Source: Synergistota bacterium (lineage in GTDB: Bacteria > Synergistota > GBS-1). From it: a stretch of DNA of 64,000 nucleotides. Shown here piece after piece: positions 42,224-48,524 of this stretch. The notes beneath the pieces were generated by a model. That model made no database searches, had not been told where the DNA came from, and saw nothing but the letters and a program-made list of their open reading frames with translations. Location: assembly GCA_025060595.1 (NCBI GenBank), contig JANXBX010000006.1, forward strand, positions 66,825-130,824, in the 5' to 3' direction. The translations under genes and the position numbers were made by a program. Within the stretch, counting starts at the first letter, position 1; every line of letters starts with the position of its first letter.

Positions 42224-43261
42224 CTATAGGGTGGGAGGAATGGAGCTCAAAACATCCTTCAATATCTCAATGGAAATAAGATATTCCTTCAAATTTATGT
42301 GCTCTCTCGGAGTGTGATCAAGGGAGCTATCACCAGGGCCATAAGCCACTGAAGGACAACCCCAAGCCGGAGCAAGCAAGTTCATATCGGCTGTACCGCT
42401 CTTCATCTTATGCTTCGGAGTTAAGCCTCTTCTTCTTATAGCCCTGTTAAAGGCTGAAACTAAAGGATTGCTTCTGTCACACTTATAAGCTTTAGCCTTA
42501 AAGTGTGGTACCCAACCATCGCCTAATATATTAAGAAGATCATCGGGATCAAGCCACAAGGGAAGCCTAAAGGAGATCCCCAGGTCAAGCCTTTCAAACA
42601 AACCATCGCTAAAAGATCTTATTTCCCTAACCTTTATATCAACCCTATCTATAGAGCCATCTCTACCTTCGTTTAACCCTTCTAAAAGCTTAGATATATC
42701 ATTTAGGCTCCTTAAACCTTCCTCTATAGCTCCATCGTTTCCAGAAGCAGGGTGAGAAACCTCAGAGATAAAGCTCTTCTTTATAAACAATGAGCCCTTG
42801 TATCCTAATGTAACTCCATCAATACCGCTCGGCTCACCTATTATTAGATAAGAGGGTGGCTTTGAAACCTTCTTTAAAAGATGAAGAGCTCCTGTCGATG
42901 GTCCCTCCTCTTCAACTGCACCAACTACTACAAGCTTAAGATGCTCAGGAATAGAAACCTCAGAAGCAGCCACTATAAAGGCTGCTAACGGACCTTTTGC
43001 ATCAACACTTCCCCTACCATAAAGAAGATCACCATCGATTCTCGGCTCTATCCATCCAGGAGCTGTATCCATATGTCCCACAAGATAAACCTCGGTTTGC
43101 CCTTTACCACGAACAGCGATAAAGTTTCCTACCTCATCCAAATAAGCTTCATCAAAATTAAGATTCTTTGAAGCATCAAGTAAAAACTCACCTATTTCCT
43201 TTTCCTCTCCAGCGAAGCTTTTTATCTCAACCATCCTGCGAAGAAGCTCTATCGGACACAT
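42224..43261 (-). CDS. lysK: LysW-lysine/ornithine hydrolase LysK (M20 family)
   Basis: A 345-residue M20-type deacylase that releases lysine or ornithine from the LysW carrier. Metal motifs: VYLVGHMDTAPGWIEPRIDG, LLYGRGSVDAKGPLAAFIVA, VVGAVEEEGPSTGALHL and IIGEPSGIDGVTLGYKG. The ending KMKSGTADMNLLAPAWGCPS and YGPGDSSLDHTPREHI are typical of LysK. It overlaps the lysJ end by 35 bp (an internal ATG nine codons in is an alternative start) and is the last gene of the operon. Confidence 0.92.
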   Translation of the reverse strand: MCPIELLRRMVEIKSFAGEEKEIGEFLLDASKNLNFDEAYLDEVGNFIAVRGKGQTEVYLVGHMDTAPGWIEPRIDGDLLYGRGSVDAKGPLAAFIVAASEVSIPEHLKLVVVGAVEEEGPSTGALHLLKKVSKPPSYLIIGEPSGIDGVTLGYKGSLFIKKSFISEVSHPASGNDGAIEEGLRSLNDISKLLEGLNEGRDGSIDRVDIKVREIRSFSDGLFERLDLGISFRLPLWLDPDDLLNILGDGWVPHFKAKAYKCDRSNPLVSAFNRAIRRRGLTPKHKMKSGTADMNLLAPAWGCPSVAYGPGDSSLDHTPREHINLKEYLISIEILKDVLSSIPPTL

Positions 43262-44429
43262 CTCTTGAAAGCACCCTCCTAACTTTATCTACGACAAAAA
43301 GGATTTCCTCCTCACTTATAACAAGAGGAGGAAGAAACCTCATTACAGTAGGCCCAGCTTGAAGGGCTAAAACCCCTTCTTCAGCCAGAGCCTTAAGGTA
43401 AGGGGCGCTCCTTTTCTTTAACTCGATACCTATCATTAAACCTAAACCCCTTACATCTTTAACAAAGGGGGAATCTATGCTTTTCAATCCATCGATAAAT
43501 AAACCACCTAATTTTTCAGCCCTTTTGTCGAGGACCTTCTCTCTCATAAACCTTATTGCCGCCCTCGCAGCAGCACATGAAAGAGGATTTCCGCCAAAGG
43601 TCGAACCATGGGTTCTAGATGGTACTTTGCCTAAAGACTCTCTCATTACGACTGCACCTATAGGAAGACCTCCTGCCATACCTTTAGCTAAACAAACCAT
43701 ATCAGGGGAAAGATCATGCCACTGGAAACCGAAGAACTTACCGGTTCTACAGAAACCAGTTTGAATTTCATCAGATATAAATAAAGCCCCTTTACTTTTA
43801 CAAAGATCCTGAGCAAATCTTAAAAACCCCCCACTTATAGGGTAAACCCCTCCTTCACCCTGAACGGGCTCGAATATAAACGCTGCAGTATCTTCATCTA
43901 TCGCCTTCTCAAGCTCTTCCCCATTCTCTGGTTCCACGTGAACAAAACCCGGAACCAACGGTTCAAAAGGCTCTCTATATTTAGGATTCCAAGTAGCGCT
44001 TAAGGCCCCAAAGGTTCTTCCATGAAAACCCCTTTTCAAAGCAACTATCTTCTTTCTCCCTGTTAGAAGTCTCGCAAACTTTATAGCCGCTTCAATAGCC
44101 TCTGTACCACTGTTACATAAAAAAACGCTACCCATATACTCCGGCATAACATCAAGAAGCTCTTTATAAAGAAGGGCTCTCTCCTCATGATAAAAAGTTT
44201 CGGAGCAAACTATAAGTTTTTTAGCCTGCGTTTCTATAGCTTCAAGAACATAAGGATTAGCATGCCCTACTATGCCTACCCCGTGCCCTCCAACACAATC
44301 TATATATTCCCTCCCCTGATCATCCCAAACTCTAGCTCCCTCTCCCCTAACTAACCTCAAGGGCACCTTGGGATATACTCCACTTCCATACTTCTCTTCC
44401 AGCTCTATCAGATTCAAGGTTAAGCTCAC
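43227..44429 (-). CDS. lysJ: LysW-aminoadipate/glutamate semialdehyde aminotransferase LysJ
   Basis: A 400-residue class III PLP aminotransferase of the ArgD/LysJ branch. LNLIELEEKYGSGVYPKVPL leads into LVRGEGARVWDDQGREYID; the cofactor region shows LCNSGTEAIEAAIKFARLL, FEPVQGEGGVYPI, DEIQTGFCRTGKFFGF and the PLP lysine in VCLAKGMAGGLPIGAVV. It starts at a GTG 4 bases after AAGGAG, inside the 3' end of lysZ (83-bp overlap). Here it would serve both lysine and ornithine synthesis. Confidence 0.92.
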   Translation of the reverse strand: MSLTLNLIELEEKYGSGVYPKVPLRLVRGEGARVWDDQGREYIDCVGGHGVGIVGHANPYVLEAIETQAKKLIVCSETFYHEERALLYKELLDVMPEYMGSVFLCNSGTEAIEAAIKFARLLTGRKKIVALKRGFHGRTFGALSATWNPKYREPFEPLVPGFVHVEPENGEELEKAIDEDTAAFIFEPVQGEGGVYPISGGFLRFAQDLCKSKGALFISDEIQTGFCRTGKFFGFQWHDLSPDMVCLAKGMAGGLPIGAVVMRESLGKVPSRTHGSTFGGNPLSCAAARAAIRFMREKVLDKRAEKLGGLFIDGLKSIDSPFVKDVRGLGLMIGIELKKRSAPYLKALAEEGVLALQAGPTVMRFLPPLVISEEEILFVVDKVRRVLSRDVSDRASSQDG

Positions 44430-45246
44430 TCCTTCCTCTAAATATGGTTCCTTTACCCTGGAGAGCTGATATAATCGGGCTCTCGATACAACCAGAGGCT
44501 ATTACACCTTCCCTGACTCCTCCTCTAACAGCTTCAAACAATGCCATCACCTTTTTCTTCATTCTACCTTTGGCTATCTGAAGTATCTCCTCTTCCATGT
44601 CAAGAGAAACCTCTTGAATTAAGCTTTCAGGATCACTTAAATCCCTTAAGAGGCCTGGCACATCCGAGAGAATAACCAAGCTTTCACTTCCTAAGGACAA
44701 AGCTATCTTTGATGCAAGGGTATCTCCATCAACGTTAAGGAGCTCTCCATTAAAGCCAAAGGCCAAGGGAGCTACTACAGGAACAAAACCCATATTTAAA
44801 AGCTCCCTTAAGAAAGAATCGTTAATCCTCTCTATCTTGCCGGAGTAGTCATCTTTTATAACCTTAACCTTCCCATCAGGTGTAAGAGCCTTTATAATCT
44901 TCCTCTCGGCTTCAATCAGCCTACCATCGGCTCCGCTTAAACCTATAGCTTGAACCCCTATGCTTTGAAGCTGAGCAACAAGAAATCTGTTTATCTTTCC
45001 AGCACACGCCATAACAAAGACTTCAAGAACCTCTTTCGTCGTTCTTCTGCTTTCAAACCCAGAAGGAGAAACCACCTTTTCTACCTCGACACCTAGCTTC
45101 CTTGATAGCTCATTTGTAGCCTCACCACCGCCATGGACTATAACAAGCTTTTCACCCATATCATAAAGCCTTTTAATATCACTGCATACATTTTTGAAAT
45201 TCCCATTCAGGCTTCCACCTATCTTTAAAACTATCAAAAACTTCAC
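44347..45246 (-). CDS. lysZ: LysW-aminoadipate/glutamate kinase LysZ
   Basis: An amino-acid kinase of the ArgB/LysZ family. The nucleotide site starts VLKIGGSLNG and VIVHGGGEATNELSRKLG; FVPVVAPLAFGFNGELLNVD and VDGDTLASKIALSLGSESL are substrate and ATP motifs. Start: a GTG at the lysY stop gives MKFLIVLKIGG; a TTG three codons later would match the usual MIVLKIGG start even better. The family normally ends near GKGTIF; here about 25 extra residues are read from DNA that also encodes the LysJ N-terminus. Confidence 0.9.
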   Translation of the reverse strand: MKFLIVLKIGGSLNGNFKNVCSDIKRLYDMGEKLVIVHGGGEATNELSRKLGVEVEKVVSPSGFESRRTTKEVLEVFVMACAGKINRFLVAQLQSIGVQAIGLSGADGRLIEAERKIIKALTPDGKVKVIKDDYSGKIERINDSFLRELLNMGFVPVVAPLAFGFNGELLNVDGDTLASKIALSLGSESLVILSDVPGLLRDLSDPESLIQEVSLDMEEEILQIAKGRMKKKVMALFEAVRGGVREGVIASGCIESPIISALQGKGTIFRGRSELNLESDRAGREVWKWSISQGALEVS

Positions 45247-45250
45247 CCCC

Positions 45251-46279
45251 CTAAACGGGATAAACAGGTACAAGCTTTAACCCCATATCTTCAGGCAATC
45301 CCAAAGCGATATTAGCCGCTTGAACTGCACTGCCTGATGCTCCTTTAACCAGATTATCTATAACGCTTACCACGGTTAATGCTCTTCCACCAGGATGAAG
45401 TTTAAGCCCGATCATACAAAGATTAGTCCCTGTAACCCATCTTGGATCAGGAAAACGAAGATGCTCCGGCTTAAAAGGACAGAGCTCAATAAAAGATTCA
45501 GAAGAATATCTATCCCTATAGATCTTAAGTATCTCCCTTTCACTAAGATCCTCTTTAAGCTCACATCTAACAACAGCTTGAATACCTCTGACAAGCTCAA
45601 CAGCTGTTATCCTTATCTCTCCATTAACTCCCGTCTCTTGAGTGACCTCAGCAAGGTGCCTATGCTCATAAGTAGCATAGATCCTTAAGGCCCTGCTTCT
45701 TTCTGGATGATGTCCGCCCTCTGAAGGCTTAGCTCCTCCCGCAGAAGAACCAACCCTTACATCCGCATGAAAACTTTCCAATAGCTTCTTCTCAGCCAAT
45801 GGCAAAAGAGCCAAATTTATAGCTGTTGCATTACATCCCACACCCGAGATCAACTTAGCGCTTCGTAACTCCTCTCTATGAGCCTCGGGAAGACCATAGA
45901 CTGAACTTTTCAGAAGCTCCGGATAAGGATGGCTCCAAGAGTACCACTTTTCATACTCCCTGGGCTCCTTAAGCCTGAAGTTAGCGCTTAAGTCAACAAC
46001 CTTTTTCCCCTTATCGTATATTTCTTTAACGAGATCAGCTCCCTCACCATGAGATAGAGCAACAAAGGCTATATCAAAATCCTCATCAAGGGCTTCTCCG
46101 TAACTTATAAAGTTATCCTTAAAAAAAGGCCTTAGGTGAGGATGATACCTCCAGATGGGCTCCCCTACCGCCCCCTGAGAGGCAACGCCTATAACCTTTA
46201 TCCCTTCATGAAAAGAAAGTATCCTCAACAGCTCTCCTCCAGTGTATCCCCTTCCTCCGAACACAATAGCCTTTATCAC
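45251..46279 (-). CDS. lysY: LysW-aminoadipyl/glutamyl-phosphate reductase LysY
   Basis: A 342-residue ArgC/LysY-type semialdehyde dehydrogenase. IVFGGRGYTGGELLRIL is the NADP site and LISGVGCNATAINLALLPLA holds the catalytic cysteine. VGSSAGGAKPSEGGHHPERS is typical of the LysY branch that handles LysW-linked substrates. It reduces the acyl phosphate made by LysZ to the semialdehyde. It overlaps the upstream lysX copy by 4 bp. Confidence 0.93.
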   Translation of the reverse strand: MIKAIVFGGRGYTGGELLRILSFHEGIKVIGVASQGAVGEPIWRYHPHLRPFFKDNFISYGEALDEDFDIAFVALSHGEGADLVKEIYDKGKKVVDLSANFRLKEPREYEKWYSWSHPYPELLKSSVYGLPEAHREELRSAKLISGVGCNATAINLALLPLAEKKLLESFHADVRVGSSAGGAKPSEGGHHPERSRALRIYATYEHRHLAEVTQETGVNGEIRITAVELVRGIQAVVRCELKEDLSEREILKIYRDRYSSESFIELCPFKPEHLRFPDPRWVTGTNLCMIGLKLHPGGRALTVVSVIDNLVKGASGSAVQAANIALGLPEDMGLKLVPVYPV

Positions 46280-47106
46280 GAAAGCACCTCCTCAACATAG
46301 TCAGCTATCATCTCTCCCACATCGATTCCAACATCTCTGGATGATCTTGCAAACTCTGGCGTAGAATTAACTTCATTAACTAGAAGCCCTCTTTCGCTCT
46401 CAAAGAGATCCAAAGCTATAAAGTCTCCACCAACGATAGAAGCCACCTTTTCCGATATTCTAATTAACTCATCACTTACGGAACATAACGCAGCTTTAGC
46501 TCCTCTAGCCGTATTTGTTACCCAATGGGAAGAGCTTCTATAAACCGCATACTTAACTTTCCCACCTATAACAAGAACCCTGATATCCCTTCCAGGCTTC
46601 CTTACATACTCTTGAATATAAAAGGCCTTCTGATGAACTCCTCCTAAGTTCCAGCGACAAAATATTATAGCTTCGGCAGCATCCCTATCATTAACCTTTG
46701 CTAAGAGCCTTCCCCAGGAACCGTTAACGGGCTTTATAACAGCAGGATAACCAATCTCCTCTAAGGCCTCTAAAGCCTTCTCAGGGGTAAAAGCAAGATA
46801 GGTACGGGGAACAGGAATTCCCTCCTTGGCCAAAAGCTCGGTAGTCAAAGCTTTATCGTTACAGACGACCATTGTTCTAAAGGGATTTATAACCTTAACT
46901 CCCCTATCCTCAAGCAAAAAGGATATATAAGTAGCCTGAGAGGCACTTAAGGTTCTATTTATAGCTAATCTAGCTCCAGGAACTCCATTACCTAACTCCC
47001 AAAGGGTCCTATTCCCCAGAACCTTTTCCACCTTTATCCCCCTTCTACTTAAAGCTTTATCTATTATCCTTTCCTCATCCCTCAAAATCGTATAGATTAA
47101 GAGAAT
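46276..47106 (-). CDS. lysX: LysW-amino acid ligase, copy 1 (LysX/ArgX-type, ATP-grasp)
   Basis: A RimK-like ATP-grasp ligase that joins the alpha-amino group of aminoadipate or glutamate to the C-terminal Glu of LysW. Features: [90 protein letters not shown] and LLVNEVNSTPEFARSSRDVG. The frame is open to 47169, but upstream starts overlap lysW and lack well-placed ribosome sites. An ATT at 47106, eight bases after GGAGG, gives MLLIYTILRDEERIIDKALS, which fits the family N-terminus. Substrate (aminoadipate or glutamate) is not certain. Confidence 0.87.
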   Translation of the reverse strand: MLLIYTILRDEERIIDKALSRRGIKVEKVLGNRTLWELGNGVPGARLAINRTLSASQATYISFLLEDRGVKVINPFRTMVVCNDKALTTELLAKEGIPVPRTYLAFTPEKALEALEEIGYPAVIKPVNGSWGRLLAKVNDRDAAEAIIFCRWNLGGVHQKAFYIQEYVRKPGRDIRVLVIGGKVKYAVYRSSSHWVTNTARGAKAALCSVSDELIRISEKVASIVGGDFIALDLFESERGLLVNEVNSTPEFARSSRDVGIDVGEMIADYVEEVLS

Positions 47107-47128
47107 CTTCTTGTCCTCCGTCCCAAGG

Positions 47129-47299
47129 CTACTCCCCCCAATCCTCTTCAACCTCGGGAGCAACCTCAAGCTCCAAAGGATTAAGACTCACAATCTCAAG
47201 TTCAACACCACAATCAGGACATATAACAATTTCTCCCACCTCTGGATCTTCAAGCTCTAATACCACATCACACTCAGGACAACGAGATTTAATCACCAT
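47129..47299 (-). CDS. lysW: Amino-group carrier protein LysW
   Basis: A 56-residue acidic carrier starting MVIKSRCPECDVVLELEDPE. Two CxxC pairs (CPEC and CPDC) form the zinc finger, and the C-terminus EVEEDWGE carries the conserved terminal Glu to which the substrate is attached. The ATG follows GGGGGTGAATTTA; an upstream in-frame ATG overlaps the first ligase gene and is less likely. The genes on both sides encode LysW ligases. Confidence 0.95.
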   Translation of the reverse strand: MVIKSRCPECDVVLELEDPEVGEIVICPDCGVELEIVSLNPLELEVAPEVEEDWGE

Positions 47300-47313: not shown

Positions 47314-48150
47314 TCAAAGGAAACTTTTTATATACCTTACTATCTCCCCTGGTATGTCCACACCCGTAGGGGCAATGCTATTTCTAAACTCAGGGGAGTG
47401 ATTTATCTCGTTAACCAAGAGCTCACCCGAGGGTGTCTCAAAAATATCAAGGGCTACCACCTCTCCATCTACAGCACGAGCTGCTCTTTCAGAAAGCTCA
47501 ACTAGCTCAGAAGTTAATGGGCAGTTTCTAGCTTCACCACCACGAGCGGTATTTGTTATCCAGTGAGGCGAAACCCTATATATGGCAGCAACACACTTGC
47601 GTCCTATAACGAAGCTTCTTATATCCCTGCCAGGCTTATTCACATACTCTTGAATATAGAAGATCTTCTGAAGCCCATTTCCTAAAGTGTACTTATGTTC
47701 CAATACCGCCTCAGCCGCATCTTTATCATTAACCTTCGCTAAAAGCCTTCCCCAAGAACCATTAACAGGCTTAACAACCGCTGGATATCCAACCCTCTCT
47801 ATTGCCTTTAAAGCATTCTCTGGAGAAAAAGCAAGATAAGTACGCGGAACAGGAATACCATTTTCCACCAAGAGAAGAGTTGTTATAGCTTTATCTAGAC
47901 AGCTAGATATTGCCCTAGAGGAACTTATTACCCTTATTCCGTTACTTTCAAGGACCCGCGATACATAGAAAGCATGAGAGGCTGAAATAACGCGGTTTAA
48001 AACCACCGCAGGGGGTTTAATAGAAAGCTCCCCATTAGCAAAGAGAGGAAGTAAAAGACTATCCTCGTGAAGAAGATTTAGAGCAACACCCTCCCTTTCA
48101 AAGGCATCGATAAGCAACTTTTCCTCAACTCTTAACCTTGAGTAGACCAT
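47314..48150 (-). CDS. lysX: LysW-amino acid ligase, copy 2 (LysX/ArgX-type, ATP-grasp)
   Basis: A 278-residue paralogue of the other ligase. It has [80 protein letters not shown] and [20 protein letters not shown]. The NEIN-x3-EF-x-NS ending is close to the classic LysX/ArgX motif, while copy 1 is more divergent there (NEVNSTPEFARSS). Presence of two ligases with one carrier suggests one acts on aminoadipate (lysine) and the other on glutamate (arginine). It is the first structural gene after the leader attenuator. Confidence 0.9.
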
Positions 48151-48202
48151 CCAAGCCTGCGCTTCCCCAAGTCAACCACCCTCCTTAAAAGATAGATATA
48201 AA

Positions 48203-48241
48203 AAAAGCCCCGCTCACCCTGGGAAGGTGAGCGGGGCTTTT
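48203..48241 (-). terminator. Intrinsic terminator of the LysW-operon leader
   Basis: A 16-bp perfect stem (AAAAGCCCCGCTCACC / GGTGAGCGGGGCTTTT) over a 7-base loop, running directly into seven Us on the reverse strand. It lies between the leader peptide stop codon and the first lysX start, i.e. downstream of the operon promoter, so it must be bypassed for expression. Confidence 0.9.
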
Positions 48242-48300
48242 AAAAATCCCTAGAGTTTAGCTTCAGCCTAAAGCTGAAGCAATAAACCCACCTTCCCAAG
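48218..48300 (-). promoter_or_regulatory. Antiterminator pairing of the LysW-operon attenuator
   Basis: The leader segment TGGGAAGGTG (48298-48289) is an exact reverse complement of CACCTTCCCA (48229-48220), which forms the top of the terminator 5' arm and its loop. With flanking and wobble pairs the helix extends to about 15 bp (48286-48300 with 48218-48232). The two structures cannot coexist. A small hairpin (GCTTCAGC / GCTGAAGC) lies between the two arms and overlaps the leader stop codon. Confidence 0.8.
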
Positions 48301-48376
48301 CCCTAAGCTTAGGCTTCTTGTAACCCTTGTTCCGCTTCAAAAGAGACTTGGAAAGATGAGCCTTTAAATTAATCAC
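48263..48376 (-). CDS. Lysine-rich leader peptide of the LysW operon
   Basis: A 37-residue ORF with a GTG start 9 bases after GGGAGG, beginning MINLKAHLSKSLLKRNKGYK and ending FIASALG. Seven of 37 residues are lysine (5, 10, 14, 17, 20, 21, 23), all encoded by AAG, and two are arginine (15, 25). The cluster at residues 14-25 lies just upstream of the antiterminator arm, which begins near codon 26. Stalling at these codons would leave that arm free; translation to the stop would cover it. This is the layout of trp/his-type leader peptides. Confidence 0.8.
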   Translation of the reverse strand: MINLKAHLSKSLLKRNKGYKKPKLRAWEGGFIASALG

Positions 48377-48409
48377 CCCAATTAACCTCCCTCACCAATT
48401 ATCGCGCAT

Positions 48410-48439
48410 AATATAGCATACTACTCTCTTCCCTGTCAA
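48410..48439 (-). promoter_or_regulatory. Promoter of the LysW operon
   Basis: Reverse strand: consensus TTGACA and TATATT separated by 18 bp. Transcription would start about 15 bases before the ribosome site of the leader peptide. Confidence 0.75.
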
Positions 48440-48524
48440 GGGTTTTTGAAATCAATATTTAAAGAAATTTACACCAGGGAAGTCTCAGAAATAACACCTT
48501 AAAAATAATCTCCTTTCAAACTTA

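Follow-up and report, generated by a model that had tools for sequence, protein, structure and literature searches.

A conserved leader with the anatomy of a peptide attenuator upstream of a LysW operon in a deep Synergistota lineage

The window analyzed here is a 64,000-nucleotide stretch of DNA from a Synergistota bacterium. On its minus strand, upstream of lysX-lysW-lysX2-lysYZJK, lies a leader element that is very probably a ribosome-mediated transcription attenuator. The leader holds a complete attenuator set: a protector formed by arms 1 and 2 (1:2), an antiterminator (2:3), and a terminator (3:4). Attenuation is strongly supported because this anatomy is conserved in three genera, because compensatory changes are found in 1:2 and 3:4, and because of where the control codons are placed.

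As expected of an attenuator, the leader has its own promoter, Shine-Dalgarno sequence, and short open reading frame (ORF) ahead of the operon, all on the minus strand. The sigma-70-type promoter, TTGACA-N18-TATATT (48410 to 48439), matches the consensus at 11 of 12 positions, and TTGACA is kept in the three genera. The Shine-Dalgarno sequence is GGGAGG (48386 to 48391), of which GGAGG also occurs in the related genomes G003 and G002. It is followed by an ORF that starts with GTG and runs for 37 codons plus a stop codon, 38 in all (48376 to 48263), encoding the 37-residue peptide MINLKAHLSKSLLKRNKGYKKPKLRAWEGGFIASALG. A Pfam search with this peptide gave no match. The ORF also has a cluster of codons for amino acids related to the operon. 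Its seven Lys codons (5, 10, 14, 17, 20, 21, and 23) are AAG without exception, and its two Arg codons are CGG (codon 15) and AGG (codon 25). The control codons lie between positions 14 and 23, which read AAG CGG AAC AAG and, two codons later, AAG AAG CCT AAG. A first-pass annotation of this DNA had described the promoter, GGGAGG, and the ORF with its seven AAG and two Arg codons before the first lysX, and all were found again in the same places. However, it had overlooked arm 1, a hairpin at the stop codon, and another small ORF where lysX starts.

The four arms account for three helices. Arm 1 is the protector (48344 to 48363, minus strand) and corresponds to codons 5 to 11 (AGGCTCATCTTTCCAAGTCT). 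In the leader fold it pairs over 20 bp in the window with GGGCTTGGGAAGGTGGGTTT, the antiterminator arm, and a 12-bp core of this helix is paired in three genera. Its partner, arm 2 (48284 to 48303, minus strand), has a second role, with 48300 to 48286 doubling as the 5' arm of the antiterminator. Arm 3 (48218 to 48232, minus strand) is at once the 3' arm of the antiterminator and the 5' arm plus loop of the terminator, and 12 of its 12 pairs with arm 2 are present in three genera. The antiterminator pairing noted in the first-pass annotation, TGGGAAGGTG/CACCTTCCCA, was reproduced; a 10-bp exact match joins codons 27 to 30 to the 5' half of the terminator, and wobbles bring it to 15 bp. The intrinsic terminator (48200 to 48241, minus strand) was also present, with UUUUUUU after a hairpin (48241 to 48203) that we count as 18 pairs, 10 of them GC, rather than the 16 bp given earlier. 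Between arms 2 and 3, the stop codon is spanned by a further hairpin (GCUUCAGC/GCUGAAGC; 48260 to 48280, minus strand), in which 9 of 9 pairs are kept in three genera, one of them double-changed. A terminator and an antiterminator that exclude each other, as in a leader-peptide attenuator, are therefore both present, as is a protector hairpin that competes with the antiterminator and contains three double compensatory pairs.

When unoccupied, the leader folds as 1:2 plus 3:4, with a free energy of -89.5 kcal/mol (z = -5.9), and 0 of 200 shuffled versions were as stable. As a further control, we recoded the ORF 5,000 times, holding the peptide fixed and drawing synonymous codons from the operon genes. 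The native score was reached for 2:3 in 137 of the 5,000 versions, for 1:2 in 10, and for both in only 5.

For the leader comparison we used three genera, namely the window, G003 (bacterium GBS-1; locus L004), and G002 (locus L086). G001 was left out because its contig ends inside lysX. In G003 and G002, the same element stands before the same operon, with a different gene upstream, and encodes the peptides MNRLGTHLPKICLKRNKQFKKPKPRGWEGGFFASALG and MFSSLAHLPGVCLKRNKRSKKPGLPVGGGELIASALS, respectively (start codons written as M). The ORF is free of indels in the three genera, while both flanks carry them. Residues H7, L8, L13, K14, R15, N16, K17, K20, K21, and P22 and an ASAL end are invariant, and the residue just before the stop codon varies. 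TTG AAG CGG AAC AAG forms an identical 15-nucleotide block (TTGAAGCGGAACAAG) in all three. Elsewhere, 51 of the 65 differing codon comparisons alter the amino acid, and conservation of the peptide is concentrated at its control codons and in the parts that coincide with RNA arms.

The pairings are also retained. For the terminating form (the 12-bp core of 1:2, the stop-codon hairpin, and 15 bp of 3:4), all 36 pairs, or 108 of 108 cells, are standard. Six pairs are double-changed, three of them in 1:2, and pairing falls to 35 to 61% if the partner is slid by one to three columns. All 36 cells of the antiterminator are paired as well, with three one-sided changes, so that the changes in arm 2 are all compatible with both of its partners. 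Because its changes are one-sided only, covariation does not bear on the 2:3 helix. With only three sequences, the modest result of the shuffle control for covariation (11 of 500) was to be expected. Covariation in related genomes had been proposed as a check, and it favored the element; the ORF and the 1:2, 2:3, and 3:4 pairings were retained, with compensatory changes in 1:2, 3:4, and the stop-codon hairpin. These data also bear on a simpler explanation, in which a plain terminator separates the promoter from the operon and the ORF encodes a small functional protein, with no switching. The ORF is conserved and in all likelihood translated, and with nothing but a terminator the operon would be expressed at a low basal level. 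However, this explanation does not account for antiterminator and protector pairings that persist across three genera alongside compensatory changes, or for a peptide that lacks a Pfam match and is conserved mainly at control codons and RNA-arm overlaps. We consider it very improbable.

A long structured leader with a terminator ahead of a biosynthesis operon could also be a riboswitch that binds lysine, arginine, or another metabolite, with the ORF being incidental. The lysine riboswitch (L box) does resemble this leader in preceding lysine-related genes and using a terminator. However, an Rfam scan of the leader found no family at gathering score, including the lysine riboswitch and T-box covariance models. 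Furthermore, what is conserved is the reading frame, the positions of codons, and simple alternative helices, not a multi-helix aptamer. A riboswitch therefore seems extremely improbable. Sub-threshold Rfam matches (CopA, sX13, GcvB, and others) were rejected, being mostly on the terminator.

Sequence and comparison show the parts of the attenuator, the pairings that exclude one another, and the conservation of both; from these we infer ribosome stalling, its trigger, and its effect on transcription. To simulate a stall, the RNA up to ~12 nucleotides past the A-site codon was deleted, which assumes a ribosome footprint, and the remainder was folded. In all three genera, 2:3 pairing resulted when the A site was at codons 5 to 23 and arm 3 was the newest RNA. 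There was none for stalls from codon 25 or 26 onward, and once the ribosome had reached the stop codon, the terminator was all that remained downstream. The last clustered control codon (23, or 21 in G002) is the exact limit for 2:3 in the simulation. The clustered Lys and Arg codons fill the interval from 14 to 23, where the ribosome is between arms 1 and 2 and arm 2 is free. With the assumed footprint, then, a stall at the control codons frees arm 2 and completion of the ORF does not. Folding with and without a stalled ribosome had been suggested as a check, and its outcome agreed with attenuation; the free leader gave 1:2 plus 3:4, and stalls at codons 14 to 23 favored 2:3. The equilibrium fold of the full-length leader usually favors 3:4, and therefore antitermination must be kinetic, as it is in other attenuators.

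We propose the following mechanism. With ample charged Lys-tRNA (and perhaps ample Arg-tRNA of the rare kind that reads CGG), the lead ribosome would pass codons 14 to 25 and reach the stop codon. Arms 1 and 2 would then re-pair, leaving arm 3 free to fold with arm 4, and RNA polymerase would halt near 48200. When charged tRNA is scarce, the ribosome would stall at codons 14 to 23, within the loop that arms 1 and 2 enclose, keeping these arms separate and arm 2 exposed. Arm 2 could then capture nascent arm 3 and block the terminator, so that lysX-lysW-lysX2-lysYZJK would be transcribed. If the leader is not translated, 1:2 would form and termination would be the default. The first-pass annotation had a terminating ribosome covering the antiterminator arm. 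This is not the case, because the arm is at codons 26 to 31 and the stop codon is codon 38; it is arm 1 that masks arm 2. Judging from the usual footprint, a ribosome at the stop codon would sit just downstream of arm 2 and let 1:2 re-form.

The broader suggestion that stalling at Lys, and perhaps Arg, codons controls the operon stands as far as the conserved attenuator anatomy is concerned, but its geometry was wrong, and in the window's lineage lysine is only one possible product of the operon. The cognate amino acid may be lysine, arginine, or both. ArgJ is absent from all four family genomes, and argF is present in all four; the LysW route is therefore the likely source of ornithine. Two of the genomes, G000 and G003, have dapA and lysA for making lysine from DAP. 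An intact homocitrate-synthase candidate is missing in two of the three near-complete genomes, with none found in G002 and a broken homocitrate-synthase-like (HMGL) gene in G003, and the sole such gene of G000 falls below the cutoffs of curated models. In addition, leader codon 15 (48332 to 48334) is invariably CGG in the three genera, although no Arg codon is rarer in the genes of the window (14 of 840). All of this would fit an attenuator that senses mainly arginine, or both amino acids, before an operon that makes ornithine and arginine, with CGG15 and the neighboring Lys codons acting as the brake. The presence of both KK and RR in a Thermus composti leader (see below) points the same way. 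However, Lys codons are far denser (four to seven, against two or three for Arg), with K14, K17, K20, and K21 invariant, and Lys-rich leaders with few Arg residues are found in Anaerolineae. In LysX1, moreover, the signature is of the NS type found in Thermus LysX, not the GF-type of Sulfolobus ArgX (PMC10433800). We regard sensing of mainly arginine, or of both, as a substantial possibility that is on balance improbable. Joint sensing of Lys and Arg, as such, would be plausible. An Arg-rich mini-ORF (MRNCLRRRKRR) with a terminator elsewhere in the window (21444 to 21409, minus strand) was attributed to chance, since it lies inside the end of a malic-enzyme frame, before the terminator of convergent genes.

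The helices and control codons of the attenuator have clear counterparts in other systems. The trp, his, thr, leu, and phe leaders of E. coli likewise have control codons, 1:2, 2:3, and 3:4 alternatives, and a terminator before the first gene. They differ in amino acid (Lys/Arg here), operon, and phylum, and the window's leader is distinct in that the ORF contains both arm 1 and arm 2 and a conserved hairpin of its own holds the stop codon. A closer parallel is the lysine (hcs/LysW) cluster of Thermus thermophilus, for which leader-peptide attenuation was reportedly described by Tsubouchi et al. in J Biol Chem in 2005. In T. composti, we read a leader, MLAREKKLRRGGAG, and a terminator preceding hcs. 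On this basis, the attenuation of a LysW operon is not itself new, contrary to the first-pass annotation, which knew of no peptide attenuator described for one. Both the Thermus leader and that of the window are short ORFs with tandem Lys and Arg codons and a terminator, upstream of LysW-pathway genes, and a possible antiterminator pairing was seen by eye in T. composti. However, the Thermus ORF has 14 codons for amino acids and is apparently leaderless, whereas the window's has 37 and a Shine-Dalgarno sequence. The former precedes hcs and the latter lysX, and the window's operon does not include AAA-forming genes, unlike the Thermus cluster. By eye, the clustering of Lys and Arg is all that the T. 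composti and window leaders have in common, with no sequence likeness in leader or arms.

We know of no leader-peptide attenuator described for the window's lineage, and the element would extend this type of control to a deep uncultured branch of Synergistota. Within the phylum we saw it in the window's family alone; the region ahead of LysX at 26 further Synergistota loci yielded no Lys-rich leader. At the time of a 2010 survey (PMC2965389), leader-peptide systems were still known almost only from Proteobacteria and Actinobacteria.

Lys-rich leaders also occur in other phyla. We scanned with a fixed rule (a Shine-Dalgarno sequence, a short ORF with at least 4 codons for one amino acid in 8, and a terminator). 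For Lys, this gave 15 of 107 loci upstream of lysX, compared with 0 of 1,312 control stretches taken from those loci; the remaining amino acids each gave 0 to 2 of the 107. A Lys-rich leader and terminator precede lysW-lysX in 17 loci that belong to Chloroflexota or group with them (Anaerolineae-type). By eye, 13 of the 17 have two successive leader/terminator units, a KKAKK-type leader and then a KKKQSKKPDPRSG-type leader, each followed by its own terminator. Locus L036, for example, has MYILTCDKKAKKT and then MLSAAALQTFDSKKKQSKKPDPRSG before lysW-lysX. The tandem loci are L036 (5500 to 5770), L038, L041, L047, L030, L037, L043, L048, L052, L062, and L080 and also L020 and L032. The LysX of L043, whose record is titled Bacteroidetes, is nearly identical to that of the Chloroflexi locus L048, and L043 is probably a mis-binned contig. 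In many Anaerolineae units, the 5' arm of the terminator has a pairing partner in the stretch that follows the Lys codons (e.g., GTCCGGGC/GCCCGGAC in L041), and the statistics for such single-unit pairings range from strong to none. "KKKKIG.." ORFs before LysX in Ignavibacteria and Calditrichota were rejected by reasoning, as they look like the EEDWGE end of LysW read out of frame.

On a LysX tree, the leader-bearing set required seven label changes, compared with 18.5 after shuffling; the T. composti row is outside this set. The trait is therefore clustered, yet it was gained or lost several times. Together with the Chloroflexota leaders, the window's element suggests that attenuation is a recurrent control of LysW-carrier operons. 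The more novel part is the Anaerolineae tandem attenuators, which are outside the window; full-text literature searches found no paper on LysW/Chloroflexota leaders. We tentatively suggest, at a little less than an even chance, that LysW operons acquired Lys-codon attenuators on repeated occasions and in three phyla or more (the window's class of Synergistota, Chloroflexota, and Deinococcota), with a two-step attenuator before lysW in Anaerolineae and a Lys/Arg reading that uses the rarest Arg codon in the window's lineage. Leader codons report what the cell measures, and they might provide a genetic hint as to whether LysW operons serve lysine, arginine, or both.

The operon itself begins with lysX (LysX1; TIGR02144; 47314 to 48150, minus strand). 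This is followed on the same strand by lysW, encoding a carrier protein with a C-terminal EDWGE (TIGR01206; 47129 to 47317), the second lysX (LysX2; 46276 to 47169), and lysY/argC, lysZ/argB, lysJ/argD, and lysK (42224 to 46279), the last four in the same order in relatives. LysX2 is probably a lineage-specific paralogue, and lysW has a lysX gene on either side. LysX1 and LysX2 group together in the tree, each being nearest to the other, a pattern suggestive of duplication in this lineage, although the long branches call for caution. In our alignment, their substrate-loop motifs are NSIAP in LysX1 (NS-type, as in Thermus LysX) and RSSRD in LysX2; the meaning of this LysX/ArgX signature is described elsewhere (PMC10433800). 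The start of lysX has hardly any Shine-Dalgarno sequence, and LysX1 has about three N-terminal residues fewer than Thermus LysX. The second small ORF (12 codons; 48132 to 48170, minus strand), conserved in three genera, reads TTG GGG AAG CGC AGG CTT GGA TGG and onward, overlapping the lysX ATG in another frame. It has a strong Shine-Dalgarno sequence, AAGGAGG (48186 to 48180), and translational coupling or a frameshift start of lysX is possible.
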